NCBI RefSeq assembly: GCF_002556545.1
Contig: NZ_CP022685.1
Location: 1-64,000, forward strand
Reading direction: 5' to 3'
Length of the DNA: 64,000 nucleotides
DNA from: Streptomyces formicae
GTDB taxonomy: Bacteria; Actinomycetota; Actinomycetes; Streptomycetales; Streptomycetaceae
Part shown: piece after piece, positions 21,301 to 40,255 of the stretch
Layout of the letters: each line of letters begins with the position of its first letter
Position numbering within the stretch: position 1 is the stretch's first letter
Program-made: the position numbers and the translations under genes
The notes under the pieces: model-generated
Database searches by the model: none
Told to the model about the DNA's origin: nothing
The model's input: the letters and a program-made list of their open reading frames with translations, nothing else

Positions 21301-22569
21301 TCAGATGACGACGAGGTCCTTGCCCAGCCAGTAGTTGCGGCCGGTCAAGTCCGCCTCGGCGAAGCGCCGTTCGACGTCCAGGTAGCCGTCGACGAGCTGC
21401 TTCGCCGTCATGAGCTTGGGTTCGAAGGTCACGGCCAGGGGGTCGTCGATGCCCTGGGGGCGCTTTTCGAGAAGCCGTCCCTCCCGGCCCAGGTGCTCGT
21501 ACAGGGGTGTGCCGGGGATGGGGTAGAGGACGCTCAGGAACAGCCGGGAGACCTTGGTGCGCAGGGCGAACTCGTAGGTCTCCTCAAAGACGTCCGGGTC
21601 GTCCCAGTCGAAGCCGAAGATGACGTTGACCTGCGTCTCCACTCCGGCTTCGTGCAGTTGGAGCAGCAGGTCCTCGGCCTCGGGGATGGTGAAGAAGGTC
21701 TTCTCGGTGAACTCGCGGTTCTTCTCCCGCACGCTCTCCACGCCGAAGGAGACCACCCGCATCCCGCCATCGAGCGCCGACGTGACGACGTCGGGGTGGC
21801 GGGAGAGGTTGAAGTCGGTCTGGCAGCCCCATTCGATGCCTTCTCCCGCCATGCGTCCCAGGAGTTCCTTGGAGCGCTTGGGGAAGACGAGGAAGTCGTC
21901 GTCGCGGAAGACCACACGGGGGATGTGGAACCGGTCGCGGTAGGCGATGAGTTCGTCGTACACGTCGCCGACGGGGCGGTAGCGCCACTTGCTGTAGAGG
22001 AACTCGCTGCAGAAGGTGCACCTGCGCGGGCAGCCCCGCGCGGTGAACGACGGCAGGACGTACGGCTCCTCGATCTTGCTGAAGTCGACGAGGTCGAAGC
22101 GGGGCAGGGGGTGGCCGTTCATGGGGACCGGCAGTTCGGTCTGGTAGATCTCCTTGAGTTCGCCGCGGGCCAGGTCGTCCAGGAGGTGCTGCCACAGGAC
22201 GTCGGCCTCGCCGACCACGACGGAGTCGCTGAAGCGGCTGATCACCGGCACCAGGCTGTGGTCGTCCTCGATGGTGGCGGGGCCGCCGACGACGACGCGG
22301 GGCCCCAATCGGCGGATCATGCGGGCGAGTTCCAGGGTTCGTTTGAGCTGGATGGTCTGGGTGGTGATGCCGACGACGTCGTAGGAAGCGAGGTCGTACT
22401 CGCGTTCCAGGTCCTCGCAGACTTCGTACGCGAGGTCGACCTCCCAGTCGGACGGGATCATGGCGGCCAGGTAGGGCAGCGTGAGGGAGATCAGCTGCGA
22501 GGGCCGCATCTCGCGTTTGTCCAGGCCCTCCGGGGTGTAGACGGCGGGTTCGACCAGCAATATGCGCAC
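21301..22569 (-). CDS. B12-binding-domain radical SAM protein
   Basis: 422 aa. The N-terminal part (1-130) has the fold pattern of a cobalamin-binding domain (ILLVEPAV, VVGITTQTIQLKRTLELARMIRR, RVVVGGPATIED), but no DxHxxG motif is visible, so cobalamin binding may be base-off or absent. The radical SAM site is C180-x3-C184-x2-C187 (GCPRRCTFC). Then come GVESVREKN and the TIM-barrel C-terminus. Relatives perform methylations, ring contractions or cyclisations in natural-product pathways. The cotranscribed ferredoxin is a likely reductant. The reaction is not predictable. Confidence 0.88.
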   Translation of the reverse strand: MRILLVEPAVYTPEGLDKREMRPSQLISLTLPYLAAMIPSDWEVDLAYEVCEDLEREYDLASYDVVGITTQTIQLKRTLELARMIRRLGPRVVVGGPATIEDDHSLVPVISRFSDSVVVGEADVLWQHLLDDLARGELKEIYQTELPVPMNGHPLPRFDLVDFSKIEEPYVLPSFTARGCPRRCTFCSEFLYSKWRYRPVGDVYDELIAYRDRFHIPRVVFRDDDFLVFPKRSKELLGRMAGEGIEWGCQTDFNLSRHPDVVTSALDGGMRVVSFGVESVREKNREFTEKTFFTIPEAEDLLLQLHEAGVETQVNVIFGFDWDDPDVFEETYEFALRTKVSRLFLSVLYPIPGTPLYEHLGREGRLLEKRPQGIDDPLAVTFEPKLMTAKQLVDGYLDVERRFAEADLTGRNYWLGKDLVVI

Positions 22570-36267: not shown

Positions 36268-36764
36268 CGCCTTACGACGTTGTCGGATGCGGTCCGGCCG
36301 CGGCCGTCGCCGCGCCAGGCGTGTCCTGCGCTCGCGATCTGTTCGCCCCACTGGCCCCTGCCCCCTTCGCTGGCGTGCTACCGACGGATTGAAGGGACAG
36401 CACAGCCCCGGTGCATGGTGGTGACCAGCGGGTGCAGGGCGGGGGCTGGTGGCCCCCTCGCGGCAAACGAGGGGCCCTCTCCCGGACTGGGATCCCGCGT
36501 CGGGGCACTGCGATGTGCCCCTGCCCTCCCTATTGGGCGACGGGGCGGTCAGGCAACGCAAGCGGAATACGGAACCTTGCCCTTTCCGGGCCACGGCGCG
36601 CACTAACGCACCAAACACGACGCCAAATTGCCCGTTCTGCCCCACCTGTTGGCTCTTGCGTTGTTCCCGGATCCCCCATGGGCGAGTCCTGGCGGTTGCC
36701 CGCGCTCCATGCCGGGGCCCGGCTTCTCGACAGGGGGACGCGGCAAACGTCCGAGGAGCTGACC
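36268..36764. other. Interval without a convincing gene
   Basis: About 500 bp, several frames open but none protein-like. It holds an imperfect hairpin at 36451-36476 (GGCCCCCTCG, 7-nt loop, CGAGGGGCC, one bulged C) upstream of the membrane-anchored hypothetical. Probably degenerate sequence joined to the helicase-domain fragment that follows. Confidence 0.5.
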
Positions 36765-37000
36765 CACGGACTCGGAACACTGCCGCGCAGCAGTTCCATG
36801 CCCGGGAAGGACACCTGCGCGTCCCCCGTAAACACGTGGAGGGCCTCGGGTTCGATGCCGGGGCGAACAGCTCCCTCCCGGGCGTGGACGGGCCGGTAGA
36901 GGTGCGGTTGGGGACGTGGCTCGACAACGTCCGGAAACGCGCCGGCAAACTCAGTACAGAACGCCGGGCCGACCTCGACCAACTCGGCATACGCTGGTGA
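36765..37000 (+). pseudogene. Orphan helicase-associated (HA) domain fragment
   Basis: The last about 75 codons of an open frame read AAQQFHAREGHLRVPRKHVE, then VRLGTWLDNVRKRAGKLS and TERRADLDQLGIRW, then stop. This is a canonical helicase-associated repeat (ReGHLxVPRxH...LGxWLxNxRxRxxKLxxxRxxxLxxLGxxW) and resembles the C-terminal repeat of the helicase at 208-2628. Nothing upstream in frame looks like helicase, so it is the 3' remnant of a deleted or disrupted terminal-type helicase gene. Confidence 0.75.
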
Positions 37001-37491: not shown

Positions 37492-38703
37492 TCAGGCGGT
37501 TGTGCGGGCCCGGCGGCGGCCGCCGAGGTGCTGCCACAGGGCGATGACGGCGACGGAGCCCAGGTTGAACGTGACGATCGCCAAGAACGCGGCGGCCTCG
37601 GCCTGGCGCAGGGGGCCTGCGGTGGTGAGTTCGTGAAGGGCGCGGCGGCACATCGTGACGACCGCGGGGACGACGAACAGAGCGAGGTCCACCACAGCCG
37701 CCGCGATGCCCGCGGCGTAGAAGGGCAGGTACCAGTGCACGAGGCGGCGTTCCCGCTGCGGGATATGGCTGAGGTCGATCGCGGGGGCGCCCCGCACACG
37801 CCGCCCGTACGCGCGCAGCACCTGTGTGGTGTCCGCCGCGAGGCTGCCCGCGCGCAGCCGGTTCGTGAGCACGAAGTAGAGGTCGGTGCGCAAGAAGATG
37901 GCGCACTGGAAAAGCAGTTGGATGGTGACGATGTAGGCCAGGAGCGCGGGCAGGCCACCGCCCGCGCCTGCCCAGCGCAGCCCCAGACAGCCGAGCAGCA
38001 CGCCCGCCTCCAGCGTCATGCCCGCCAGGTATGGGGCGTAGCGCTCGGCACGTGGCAGAGCCCGCACCCCGCTCATGTCCGTCTGGGCCACCAGGAAGTA
38101 CATGCGGCGGCTCAGTGAGAGAGCACCGATGGCTCCCCGGGCGCGGGCGGCCAGAAGGTGGGCCAGCTCGTGCAGGAAGACCATGGTCCAGGCCAGCAGA
38201 GCCACGATCACCGCGTTGAGGATCACCCCCGACACCACGAGGGTGTCCCTGGCGTGCGGCCACAGGCCCGGACGTGTGATCAGGACGACGGCGAGAGCCA
38301 CCCAAATCGCCCGGTAGGCGATCAGACAGGGCCGGGACAGAAGCCAGCCGAGCCGTTCAGCGGGCAAGGAGGCGAAAAGCCGCCAGCCCCGGGCCGGCTG
38401 CCCGGCTGCGGTCGTTGCCGTGGGCGTGCCGTTGATGCTCTTGATGAAGCCGCATTCCCAGAGCCCTTCAAGGAACTCGTCCAACTCGGGCGCGATACCG
38501 AAGGCGTCCTCGAAACACACCCCCACCTCAGCCAGCGGCATCCCCTGGCCCAGCCACTCGACCAGCGCGACACCCTCTATAGGCAGCGCGATGAACACCC
38601 CCGTCTCGGCACGGCCCACCTCACACAAGCCGTCCTCCGGCGCGCCGATATGCAGCGGATACAACGCGAGACGCGCGCTGCCGGAGAGCGGTGTCCTGGG
38701 CAT
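37492..38703 (-). CDS. M50-like membrane metalloprotease, putative RiPP maturation protease
   Basis: 403 aa. The N-terminal about 95 residues form a small soluble domain (FIALPIEGVALVEWL, LDEFLEGLWECGFIKSING) reminiscent of PqqD-like precursor-recognition domains. Six or so transmembrane segments follow. The first well-defined pair contains VFLHELAHLLAARARG, with HExxH at H178/E179/H182 inside the helix, as in site-2 (M50) proteases. It starts 5 nt after the stop of the ThiF-like gene, so coupled. Likely role: cutting or exporting the modified peptide encoded upstream. No downstream M50 motif (NxxPxPxLDG) is obvious, so the activity is not certain. Confidence 0.7.
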   Translation of the reverse strand: MPRTPLSGSARLALYPLHIGAPEDGLCEVGRAETGVFIALPIEGVALVEWLGQGMPLAEVGVCFEDAFGIAPELDEFLEGLWECGFIKSINGTPTATTAAGQPARGWRLFASLPAERLGWLLSRPCLIAYRAIWVALAVVLITRPGLWPHARDTLVVSGVILNAVIVALLAWTMVFLHELAHLLAARARGAIGALSLSRRMYFLVAQTDMSGVRALPRAERYAPYLAGMTLEAGVLLGCLGLRWAGAGGGLPALLAYIVTIQLLFQCAIFLRTDLYFVLTNRLRAGSLAADTTQVLRAYGRRVRGAPAIDLSHIPQRERRLVHWYLPFYAAGIAAAVVDLALFVVPAVVTMCRRALHELTTAGPLRQAEAAAFLAIVTFNLGSVAVIALWQHLGGRRRARTTA

Positions 38704-38708
38704 CCCCC

Positions 38709-39827
38709 TCACCGCCGCGGTGCGTCGCCGCACACCAGACAGTCCGGCCGCCGCGGTTCCTCTTCGCTGTAAGCGACATCCATACGGGCAAGATCGATCA
38801 ACAAACGCCGACCCAAAGCGGCCGGGGCGGCCACACCCGTCAGGTACTTGACCGTGTCCAGGGCCACGATGCTGCCGAGCAGGCCGGCCACCGGGGCCGT
38901 GCAGGGGTTGAACGTGCCCGTCGCCAGGTTCTCCGCCAGATATCGCGAGGCCGCCTCGTACCAGGGAAGCTCCTCGTGGGTGGTGCGCTGCACACACGCG
39001 AAACACGCGGTACGACCCGGGGCATGCAGGAACAAACTGACCGTCAAACCCGTGTTACCACCACGCACCCAGGGCACACCAGCCCCCACCGAGGCAGCGT
39101 TGAACCATTCGTAGATCCGCACCCGTGGCCGGTCAGCCGCGCAGATCACCAGGTCGCGCCCGGCGAACACCTCGGCGGCGCTCTTGGGCCCGTCGATCTC
39201 CAGGAACAGCGGCGTGACGGACACATGGGGATTCACCTGGGCGAGCCGTTCGACCGCCGCCTCCGTCTTCGCCCGCCCCACATCGGCGTCCGTGTAGAGC
39301 ACCTGCCGGTTCAGGTTGACCGCTTCCACCGTGTCGCAGTCCACGACGAGCAGTTCACCGACCCCCATGGCCGTGAGAGCGAGAGCAGCGTACGAGCCGA
39401 GGCCGCCGAGGCCCACCACCGCGATCCGGGACTTCCTCAAACGCGCCTGGAAGTCGTGGCCGGACAACGGCGGATGGTGGAAATGCGAGAAGAACTCGAC
39501 GTTGCGGCGGTAACGCTCAATCTCCGGCGGAGAAAAGAGCGACACATCAGGGCCCACGGCCGCATCCTCCAAATACCCCGCGGCGGCCAGCTGATCAACC
39601 GCATCGCCGACCTCCTCGTCCCGCACCAGCGGGTCGAACTCTTGCATGAGCCGGGCAATCTCAGGAAGCGTGTGCTCGCCACTGAGCAACTGCAGCAGGT
39701 GCCAGGTGTGGCCCTGCTCGTCGTCATCGAGTTCGCCGGCGATTCCGTAGTCGTACCAGCCGATGCGGATCTTTCCGCCTCCGATGGGAATGGGCGGGAA
39801 TATGGGTTTGACGCGGGGCCGCAACAT
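38709..39827 (-). CDS. E1/ThiF-like adenylyltransferase with N-terminal recognition-like domain
   Basis: 372 aa. Residues 1-95 form a winged-helix-like module (HTWHLLQLLSGEHTLPEIARLM, DAVDQLAAAGYLED) typical of RiPP recognition elements. The E1 core follows: VVGLGGLGSYAALAL (137-151, nucleotide loop), DCDTVEAVNLNRQ (163-175, with the adenylation Arg174), and a zinc site of two CxxC pairs, C275/C278 and C363/C366. Such enzymes adenylate a peptide or protein C-terminus. With the small Cys-ending peptide gene upstream, that peptide is the likely substrate. ATG at 39827 has only a weak ribosome site; a GTG start at 39953 inside the hairpin is less likely. Confidence 0.83.
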   Translation of the reverse strand: MLRPRVKPIFPPIPIGGGKIRIGWYDYGIAGELDDDEQGHTWHLLQLLSGEHTLPEIARLMQEFDPLVRDEEVGDAVDQLAAAGYLEDAAVGPDVSLFSPPEIERYRRNVEFFSHFHHPPLSGHDFQARLRKSRIAVVGLGGLGSYAALALTAMGVGELLVVDCDTVEAVNLNRQVLYTDADVGRAKTEAAVERLAQVNPHVSVTPLFLEIDGPKSAAEVFAGRDLVICAADRPRVRIYEWFNAASVGAGVPWVRGGNTGLTVSLFLHAPGRTACFACVQRTTHEELPWYEAASRYLAENLATGTFNPCTAPVAGLLGSIVALDTVKYLTGVAAPAALGRRLLIDLARMDVAYSEEEPRRPDCLVCGDAPRR

Positions 39828-39918
39828 CCAAGCCTGCTTTCGAGAAGGAACGGTGAGTGCGCGAAGGGTGAGGACATGGAGAGGAATGAACGGGTGCGCC
39901 GCTGCGCGAGCCGAGGCT

Positions 39919-39959
39919 GTTCCGGTGCGGAGGCTAAGGAGCCGCCTCCGCACCGGAAC
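39919..39959 (-). terminator. 16-bp perfect hairpin between peptide gene and ThiF-like gene
   Basis: Arms at 39919-39934 and 39944-39959 (GTTCCGGTGCGGAGGC and its exact complement) enclose a 9-nt loop. It begins 12 nt after the peptide stop codon. Lacking a T-tract, it is probably a partial terminator or RNA stabiliser that makes the peptide transcript more abundant than the enzyme transcripts, as in many RiPP and lantibiotic operons. Confidence 0.75.
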
Positions 39960-39971
39960 GCCGTGCTGGAA

Positions 39972-40043
39972 TCAGCAGTCACACGGGTCACACGTCGGCT
40001 GAGTGGTCTCGATCTTCTCGAGACGACGGATCGCAATCTTCAT
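39972..40043 (-). CDS. 23-residue Cys-ending peptide, putative RiPP precursor
   Basis: The ATG at 40043 has a strong ribosome site (GAGGGGG, 6 nt spacing). The peptide begins MKIAIRRLEKIETT, a basic, amphipathic leader-like segment, and ends with CDPCDC after a short Gln-Pro-Thr, so three Cys and two Asp occupy the last six residues and Cys is C-terminal. It is followed by a hairpin and then an E1-like enzyme and a membrane protease on the same strand. This is the standard order precursor, attenuator, modification, maturation. It is too short for routine gene callers. I know of no characterised family with this exact core. Confidence 0.72.
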   Translation of the reverse strand: MKIAIRRLEKIETTQPTCDPCDC

Positions 40044-40255
40044 CACATACCCCCTCTCGATCTCTCGGTCTCTTGATCTCGCGTTGCTCCCCGGAGAGTT
40101 CACTCGTCGCCGGACGGCGCCGAGACGGGTGCTCGTCCTCCGGAGTGCTCCCGGGCGGATCGACACTGCACCGCGCAGACACGTGTTGTCGCGCTGCGGT
40201 CTGCTGAGCGGACCGGCATCGGCAACTCCGCTATGCGGCAAGCGACTATTTAGTG

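Follow-up and report, generated by a model that had tools for sequence, protein, structure and literature searches.

A short gene of Streptomyces formicae encodes a Cys-ending 23-residue peptide and precedes genes for an E1/ThiF-like enzyme and a membrane metalloprotease. The locus raises the question of whether the three form a RiPP pathway and, if so, which carboxylate of the peptide would be activated. The stretch analysed, called the window here, comprises 64 kb at the start of a 9.61-Mb single contig.

The operon and its surroundings

The minus-strand operon runs from the peptide gene through a hairpin to the E1 and M50 genes (Table 1), the M50 gene starting 5 bases past the E1 stop. This order, with a ribosome site before the peptide gene, had been predicted originally and was confirmed in the sequence. 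Judged from sequence and structure models, the locus combines a short precursor, whose leader is conserved, with two enzymes that each carry a predicted RRE-like domain.

Table 1. Coordinates of the operon features in the window.
Feature	Position	Strand	Basis
Precursor peptide gene, 23 aa, MKIAIRRLEKIETTQPTCDPCDC	complement(39972..40043)	-	ATG start; leader motif held-out score 36.3 bits
Ribosome-binding site GAGAGGGGG	40050..40058	-	Sequence, upstream of the peptide ATG
Conserved leader block KIAIRRLEKIETT, residues 2-14	40002..40040	-	Conservation over 75 distinct 13-mers
Putative core QPTCDPCDC, residues 15-23	39975..40001	-	C..C(.)DC ending common to L097-L100 and L178; cleavage site putative
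Hairpin, 16-bp perfect stem and 9-nt loop, between the precursor and E1 genes	39919..39959	-	Gap folding z-score
RRE-ThiF/E1-like adenylyltransferase, 372 aa	complement(38709..39827)	-	Pfam ThiF 3.9e-52; models; alignment
N-terminal RRE domain of E1, about residues 1-95	39543..39827	-	
RRE-M50 membrane metalloprotease, 403 aa	complement(37492..38703)	-	HExxH (H178 E179 H182) and RTD (D274)
N-terminal RRE-like domain of the protease, residues 10-91	38431..38676	-	Model match

The 147-nt gap between the peptide and E1 genes folds with a z-score of -2.9 against dinucleotide shuffles. The gaps of four relative loci (L097, L098, L099, and L121) gave z-scores of -3.3 to -4.2; L097 and L098 are alike, the stems of all four differ from that of the window in sequence, and the L121 structure is larger. 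The gap of Calothrix L101 was not significant (z -0.8). No T-tailed terminator was listed by the scan at the hairpin. The hairpin probably lowers the expression of the enzymes relative to the precursor.

The neighbouring genes scanned were assigned by Pfam to IclR, SnoaL-like, AraC (two), alpha/beta hydrolase, hemerythrin, MFS transporter, and DUF6545. The IclR gene noted in the original prediction is real and divergent, but its link to the system was rejected, as no homologue was present at five close relative loci (L058 and L097-L100, with rough ORF calls). YcaO and LanB-type genes, as well as the LanB/PEARL-type N-terminal domain Lant_dehydr_N, had no match anywhere in the window, and the single radical SAM match (21565-22041, minus strand) lies 15 kb off the operon; the predicted lack of a YcaO, LanB, or radical SAM partner therefore holds for the operon's surroundings and, for YcaO and LanB, for the whole window. 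An exact mirror copy of the radical SAM match lies at 9589834-9590310, near the opposite contig end, so the contig ends seem to be inverted repeats that cover the radical SAM part and not the single-copy operon. An ORF at 36449-36997 (plus strand) has a helicase-associated (HA) domain at its end (3.1e-11) and resembles the remnant of a larger gene. The genome contains one protease match at 1e-15 and, besides the operon E1, two further, more distant E1 matches (3.7e-25 and 5.6e-6).

Leader and core peptides at related loci

Within the family, 56 of 394 genomes have ThiF relatives (1e-40), and within the class, 17 of 394 have protease relatives (1e-15), the window genome being counted in both; in a second family, E1 matches came from 19 of 300 genomes (1e-60). 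Across 392 genomes of the genus, the window's own genome was the sole match at 1e-75, and a single-sequence scan of genome contigs gave no relative. Plasmid relatives amounted to 77 records, all below 60% identity; proteins of the ThiF family on Streptomyces plasmids (e.g., NZ_CP107961.1 and NZ_CP109116.1) share about 34% identity with the window E1. At first look, an M50 gene lay at most 1.5 kb away in 14 of 29 relative loci. The relatives kept from one search were the best 80 of 333. Long loci were picked with a preference for M50 (19 of 63 ThiF places besides the window), 11 loci without M50 within 1.5 kb were dropped (L019, L028, and L032 re-entered as L141, L164, and L160), ORFs were called with a rough script, and seven duplicate loci were removed from the counts.

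A leader matrix of 13 columns was built from 34 seeds, leaving the window peptide out, and was run over every small ORF of all long loci on both strands with no ribosome site required. The 105 non-redundant ThiF loci comprised 58 with M50 and 47 in which none was detected; some of those without M50 match the E1 domain only (e.g., L169, L172, L173, L175, and L176), the RRE being uncertain there. A leader-motif peptide of at least 20 bits was present within 2.5 kb in 55 of the 58 ThiF and M50 loci, the window included, and the other three (L095, L152, and L162) each have a look-alike peptide. The precursor was also found in 16 of the 47 loci without detected M50, which indicates that M50 is not obligatory. 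Since the seeds had been drawn from the same loci as those scored, a held-out test and a later draw were used. The window peptide scored 42.0 bits, and 36.3 bits once every seed with at least 9 of 13 letters in common had been removed; under the same removal, all 56 scored loci reached 13 bits and 54 reached 20. The later draw (E1s at 1e-60 or better) contained M50 and the peptide in 20/20 loci, 16 of them new. In shuffled loci, which keep base composition only, 2 of 107,891 small ORFs scored at least 13 bits, the highest 13.5. A search for ThiF-M50 pairs lacking a conserved short peptide found none; the peptide gene expected beside homologous pairs is thus there, and a RiPP-like system of short precursor, RRE-E1, and RRE-M50, as originally proposed, is supported.

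In 26 of the 55 loci, the best peptide is encoded upstream in the same orientation; in 8 it is upstream but divergent, and in 21 it lies between or after the enzyme genes. Taxa with both precursor and M50 include Streptomyces, Micromonospora (precursor MKIQIRRLEKIETTVICACSPCTDC), Microbispora, Nonomuraea, Glycomyces, Calothrix, and Nostoc; in Herbidospora and Planotetraspora, the precursor is present but no M50 was detected. Tandem precursor genes, two to four with similar leaders and different cores, occur at L070, L149, L124, L145, and L159. DUF6879 was considered as a core part and rejected: it occurs in 17 of the 55 loci that have both M50 and precursor, in 11 of the 16 that have the precursor but no M50, and in 2 of the 31 that have neither, is absent from the window clade, and is named in no paper of the literature searched. 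Loci combining E1, precursor, and DUF6879 with no M50 detected include L129, L131, L132, L154, L155, L157, L165, L171, and others.

The leader consensus is I-x-I-R-x-L-[DE]-K-x-E-T-T. Of 75 distinct 13-mers, 73 keep R, 72 keep L, 71 have D or E, 73 have Glu11, 66 have T12, and 62 have T13. The lengths of the 70 distinct cores span 4-16 residues, and their C-terminal residues are of 11 kinds, including Gly (17) and Asn (16); Cys is present in 24 and absent from 46. At least one of C, S, T, Y, K, or W occurs in 68 of 70, a weak regularity because such residues are common in short cores. The C-terminal Cys, noted in the original prediction, did not prove to be a family trait and marks the window clade (5 of 70 distinct cores). 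The window core QPTCDPCDC groups with VICACSPCTDC (L097, L098, and L178), VACACGSCSDC (L100), and AAADGCCGCTDC (L099); the remaining Cys-ending core of the five, KGRDGGCC, is cyanobacterial. In a quick E1 tree carrying a long-branch warning, one side of a branch (SH-aLRT 92) is made up of the five E1s of the window clade, and L058, with the core GATALGTLSDY, adjoins them (SH-aLRT 99). Other clades have endings of their own (SNSxGN; PGCRND[LV]C[GS] in the second family), so the core type largely tracks the E1 clade.

In nine Microbispora-type, three window-clade, and five Herbidospora loci, all small samples, the pN/pS values were 0.10, 0.33, and 0.20 for the leader and 1.6, 0.35, and 0.0 for the core, respectively. 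These values point to purifying selection on the leader codons in the three groups. Two residues at the core start separate the Microbispora-type cores into two groups.

The two enzymes

The match of the E1 model to MccB (22% identity) and to PaaA (26% identity) extends along almost the whole protein and takes in the RRE, and MccB is the closest solved structure. R174, K187, D232, and two CxxC pairs are present in 74/74 aligned E1 sequences, including that of the window, which thereby keeps the counterparts of the ATP-site residues of PaaA (R174 and K187) and EnfB (Arg, Lys, and Asp). The features of an RRE-ThiF RiPP, an RRE fused to the ThiF/E1 domain and an adjacent short precursor with a conserved leader, are both present. 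Cys309 (NPC) was rejected as a catalytic thioester Cys: it is invariant in 23 close relatives but found in only 6 of the 74 sequences of the wider set, it is not aligned with the MoeB Cys in the alignment obtained, and it is retained as a clade mark only. A defence E1-E2 system was also rejected, as the PADLOC matches (best 25 of 32) lie in the shared E1 domain, none starting before residue 127.

The window protease has no Pfam match of its own up to E 1; in 34 aligned relatives, at E up to 0.1, Peptidase_M50 was detected in 14 and PqqD, the RRE family, in 10. The protease model comprises an RRE-like part, residues 10-91 of which have the lasso-peptide RRE TbiB1 as the best match, and a SpoIVFB/RseP/S2P-like part. 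HExxH and RTD are invariant in the 34 sequences, and the window protein, a membrane protein of that fold with HExxH and a downstream Asp ligand, has the features of M50 (site-2) proteases. The winged-helix N-terminus of the E1 and the similar small N-terminal domain of the HExxH protein, both anticipated from the sequence as recognition elements, are RRE-like in the models; signs that they are anything else were sought and not found.

The protease is 94% identical to a protein-collection entry named Streptomyces formicae. A protein of about 1,120 aa, not seen in the window, follows the M50 gene in three loci of the window clade, L097 (8461-11826), L098 (8419-11814), and L100 (8555-11905), with a Pfam subtilase (S8) domain in L098 and L100. 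RRE-M50 proteins with no ThiF neighbour were observed at nine loci (L076, L078, L080, L085, L087, L089, L092, L094, and L096), preceded by peptides such as MKKIKIRKAGPVRLTAAACSIYKKPS with a VRKxG.VRLT or VR[KR]LE..KTS leader; six of these loci also encode a member of a single protein cluster (TPR by Pfam in L080). These loci are perhaps a second RiPP kind.

Relation to known RiPPs and the proposed pathway

Five ThiF-type RiPPs are described in the accessible parts of PMC12250964 and PMC12150305 (microcin C, pantocin A, GRC, enterofaecin, and ind), and the comparisons below follow those parts. The ind system (IndA/IndF/IndP) is likewise a minimal set of precursor, RRE-ThiF, and metalloprotease that closes a ring via an acyl-adenylate, and its core EDTTNWYFI has an acidic start and TT like the window family (PMC12150305); it differs in its host (Streptococcus), M16 protease, transporter, and Trp-Ile bond, the window core having neither Trp nor Ile. 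GRC (GrcA/GrcB) shares the RRE-ThiF and a thiolactone with C-terminal Cys but has two radical SAM enzymes, a stand-alone RRE gene, a transporter, and a 39-aa precursor (PMC12250964); the window has its one distant radical SAM match, and its peptide has both GRC-like residues, Glu12 and C-terminal Cys23. Enterofaecin (EnfA/EnfB) has a similarly short, 21-residue precursor, a (V/I)RKA leader motif, and an RRE-ThiF, together with a WWIVI core and four transporter proteins that set it apart (PMC12250964). The window core resembles neither WWIVI nor the NWYFI of ind. The enzymes of microcin C (MccA/MccB) and pantocin A (PaaP/PaaA) have the same E1 fold over nearly the full length, and in PaaP a leader motif is followed by the modified Glu, akin to the window family (PMC12250964). 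MccA ends in Asn and gains AMP, whereas the window precursor ends in Cys; pantocin A depends on a 2OG-Fe(II) oxygenase, is a bicycle, and has two adjacent Glu (E16 and E17) behind the leader, whereas the window has a single Glu in E-T-T.

An M50 protease or a window-type leader appears in none of the five descriptions as far as these are accessible, and "M50" is absent from the main text of the ThiF RiPP review (PMC12250964). Among the matches listed in the literature searched, no paper on the window gene set was found, and a text search with leader letters listed only "kiett" and none of the longer strings. The modifying enzymes of the pearlin and epipeptide pathways, PEARL and radical SAM, differ from that of the window. 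The M50 proteases of these pathways (TglG, TmoG, and EpeP) are also membrane proteases acting on RiPP precursors, a likeness drawn from the accessible description (PMC10885120). The family may be among the other candidate clusters in Figure S1 of the supplement of the IndF paper (PMC12150305). The best reading is that the system is a variant of ThiF-type RiPPs, new by comparison with these descriptions.

We consider it highly probable that the locus is a minimal RiPP pathway. Both enzymes would dock on the I-x-I-R-x-L leader; the E1 would spend ATP to adenylate a precursor carboxylate; a nucleophile within the same peptide would attack the acyl-adenylate to give a ring; and the membrane M50 would cut near E-T-T, freeing a short modified core. 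A pathway with such intramolecular ring closure at either carboxylate is modestly favoured, and it overlaps with the Glu-anchored alternative below. In the window, Cys attack giving a thiolactone would be the favoured bond, and a thiolactone, for which GrcB is a precedent (PMC12250964, accessible part), is likely in the Cys clade. The core pN/pS of 1.6 in the Microbispora-type loci, the precursors at loci with no detected M50, the variable C-terminal residue, and the low identity to MccB and PaaA count against the pathway reading.

Activation of the C-terminal alpha-carboxylate is given a chance somewhat short of even and that of the border Glu side chain a smaller but appreciable one, the remainder falling to other acids. 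The slight lean to the C-terminus is due to precedent (MccB, EnfB, and IndF), IndF and EnfB being enzymes of the same kind that close rings at that end (accessible parts of PMC12150305 and PMC12250964), whereas conservation leans to Glu. The C-terminal residue of the cores is not conserved, and its 11 kinds, with core lengths of 4-16, would be odd if one enzyme always activated that end. The border Glu (motif position 11) is present in 69 of 71 E1 loci, including 16/16 without M50, while K or R occupies the position in 9/9 M50 loci without E1, and Glu in 0/9; the Glu therefore goes with the E1 and not with the protease, and it may be a docking residue or a modification target. As a second candidate carboxylate, it goes beyond the original prediction.

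A ring anchored on the side chain of this Glu, attacked by a core Cys, Ser, or Thr and released by cleavage before Glu, is a tentative alternative. It accords with the E1-linked distribution of the residue, with its position four residues past the IxIRxL block, and with three precedents in the accessible texts: PaaA first modifies Glu16, five residues past the FxxLxxRI leader motif, GrcB is described as joining an internal Glu side chain to the C-terminal Cys (both PMC12250964), and cleavage by IndP of S. equi leaves a core starting EDTT (PMC12150305). Yet PMC12250964 also has GrcB adenylating the C-terminus, two of the 71 E1 loci carry K (L093) or Q (L063), L095, below threshold, has R at the position, L085 and L087 share one peptide, so that two of the nine M50-only loci are not distinct, and the Glu may be merely an E1-specific docking residue. 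It is unlikely that the E1 instead adds a group at the C-terminus (AMP, an amine, or sulfur giving a thiocarboxylate) and that the M50 then frees a C-terminal piece. AMP is added in microcin C, whose MccB is the closest solved structure and whose MccA ends in Asn like 16 of the 70 distinct cores, amine addition is within the ability of EnfB, and the M50 proteases TglG (pearlins) and TmoG remove C-terminal residues (PMC10885120, accessible part); the window core, however, ends in Cys, Lant_dehydr_N has no match in the window, and neither a sulfur carrier nor a nucleotide-modifying enzyme was named by Pfam among the neighbours scanned (the IclR gene and seven other ORFs).

The C..C(.)DC of L097-L100 and the CxxCxC of the window would fit a metal-binding peptide in the window clade that the E1 merely delivers, but Cys is missing from 46 of the 70 distinct cores while the E1 ATP site stays intact, which makes this very improbable. 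A chance ORF beside two enzymes serving another purpose is scarcely credible in view of the held-out, later-draw, and shuffled tests and the purifying selection on the leader. The most far-reaching proposal, rather unlikely as a whole, is a RiPP class widely distributed in actinobacteria, cyanobacteria, and a few other bacteria, in which the E1 would link the side chain of the near-invariant E-T-T Glu, as a constant ring anchor, to a freely variable core, by a Glu-Cys thiolactone in the window clade, and an RRE-guided intramembrane protease would release and export the product, perhaps a signal.

RRE-ThiF fusions number 27,400 candidates in the accessible part of PMC12150305. Against these tens of thousands stand the five chemistries described above, and the window family is a defined two-enzyme branch. 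Its fixed leader and very variable cores would make testing in E. coli easy and the system attractive for small-ring libraries. The coming and going of the Glu with the E1 offers a direct handle on which carboxylate the E1 takes, and an M50 protease with a visible docking domain bears on the substrate choice of such proteases.
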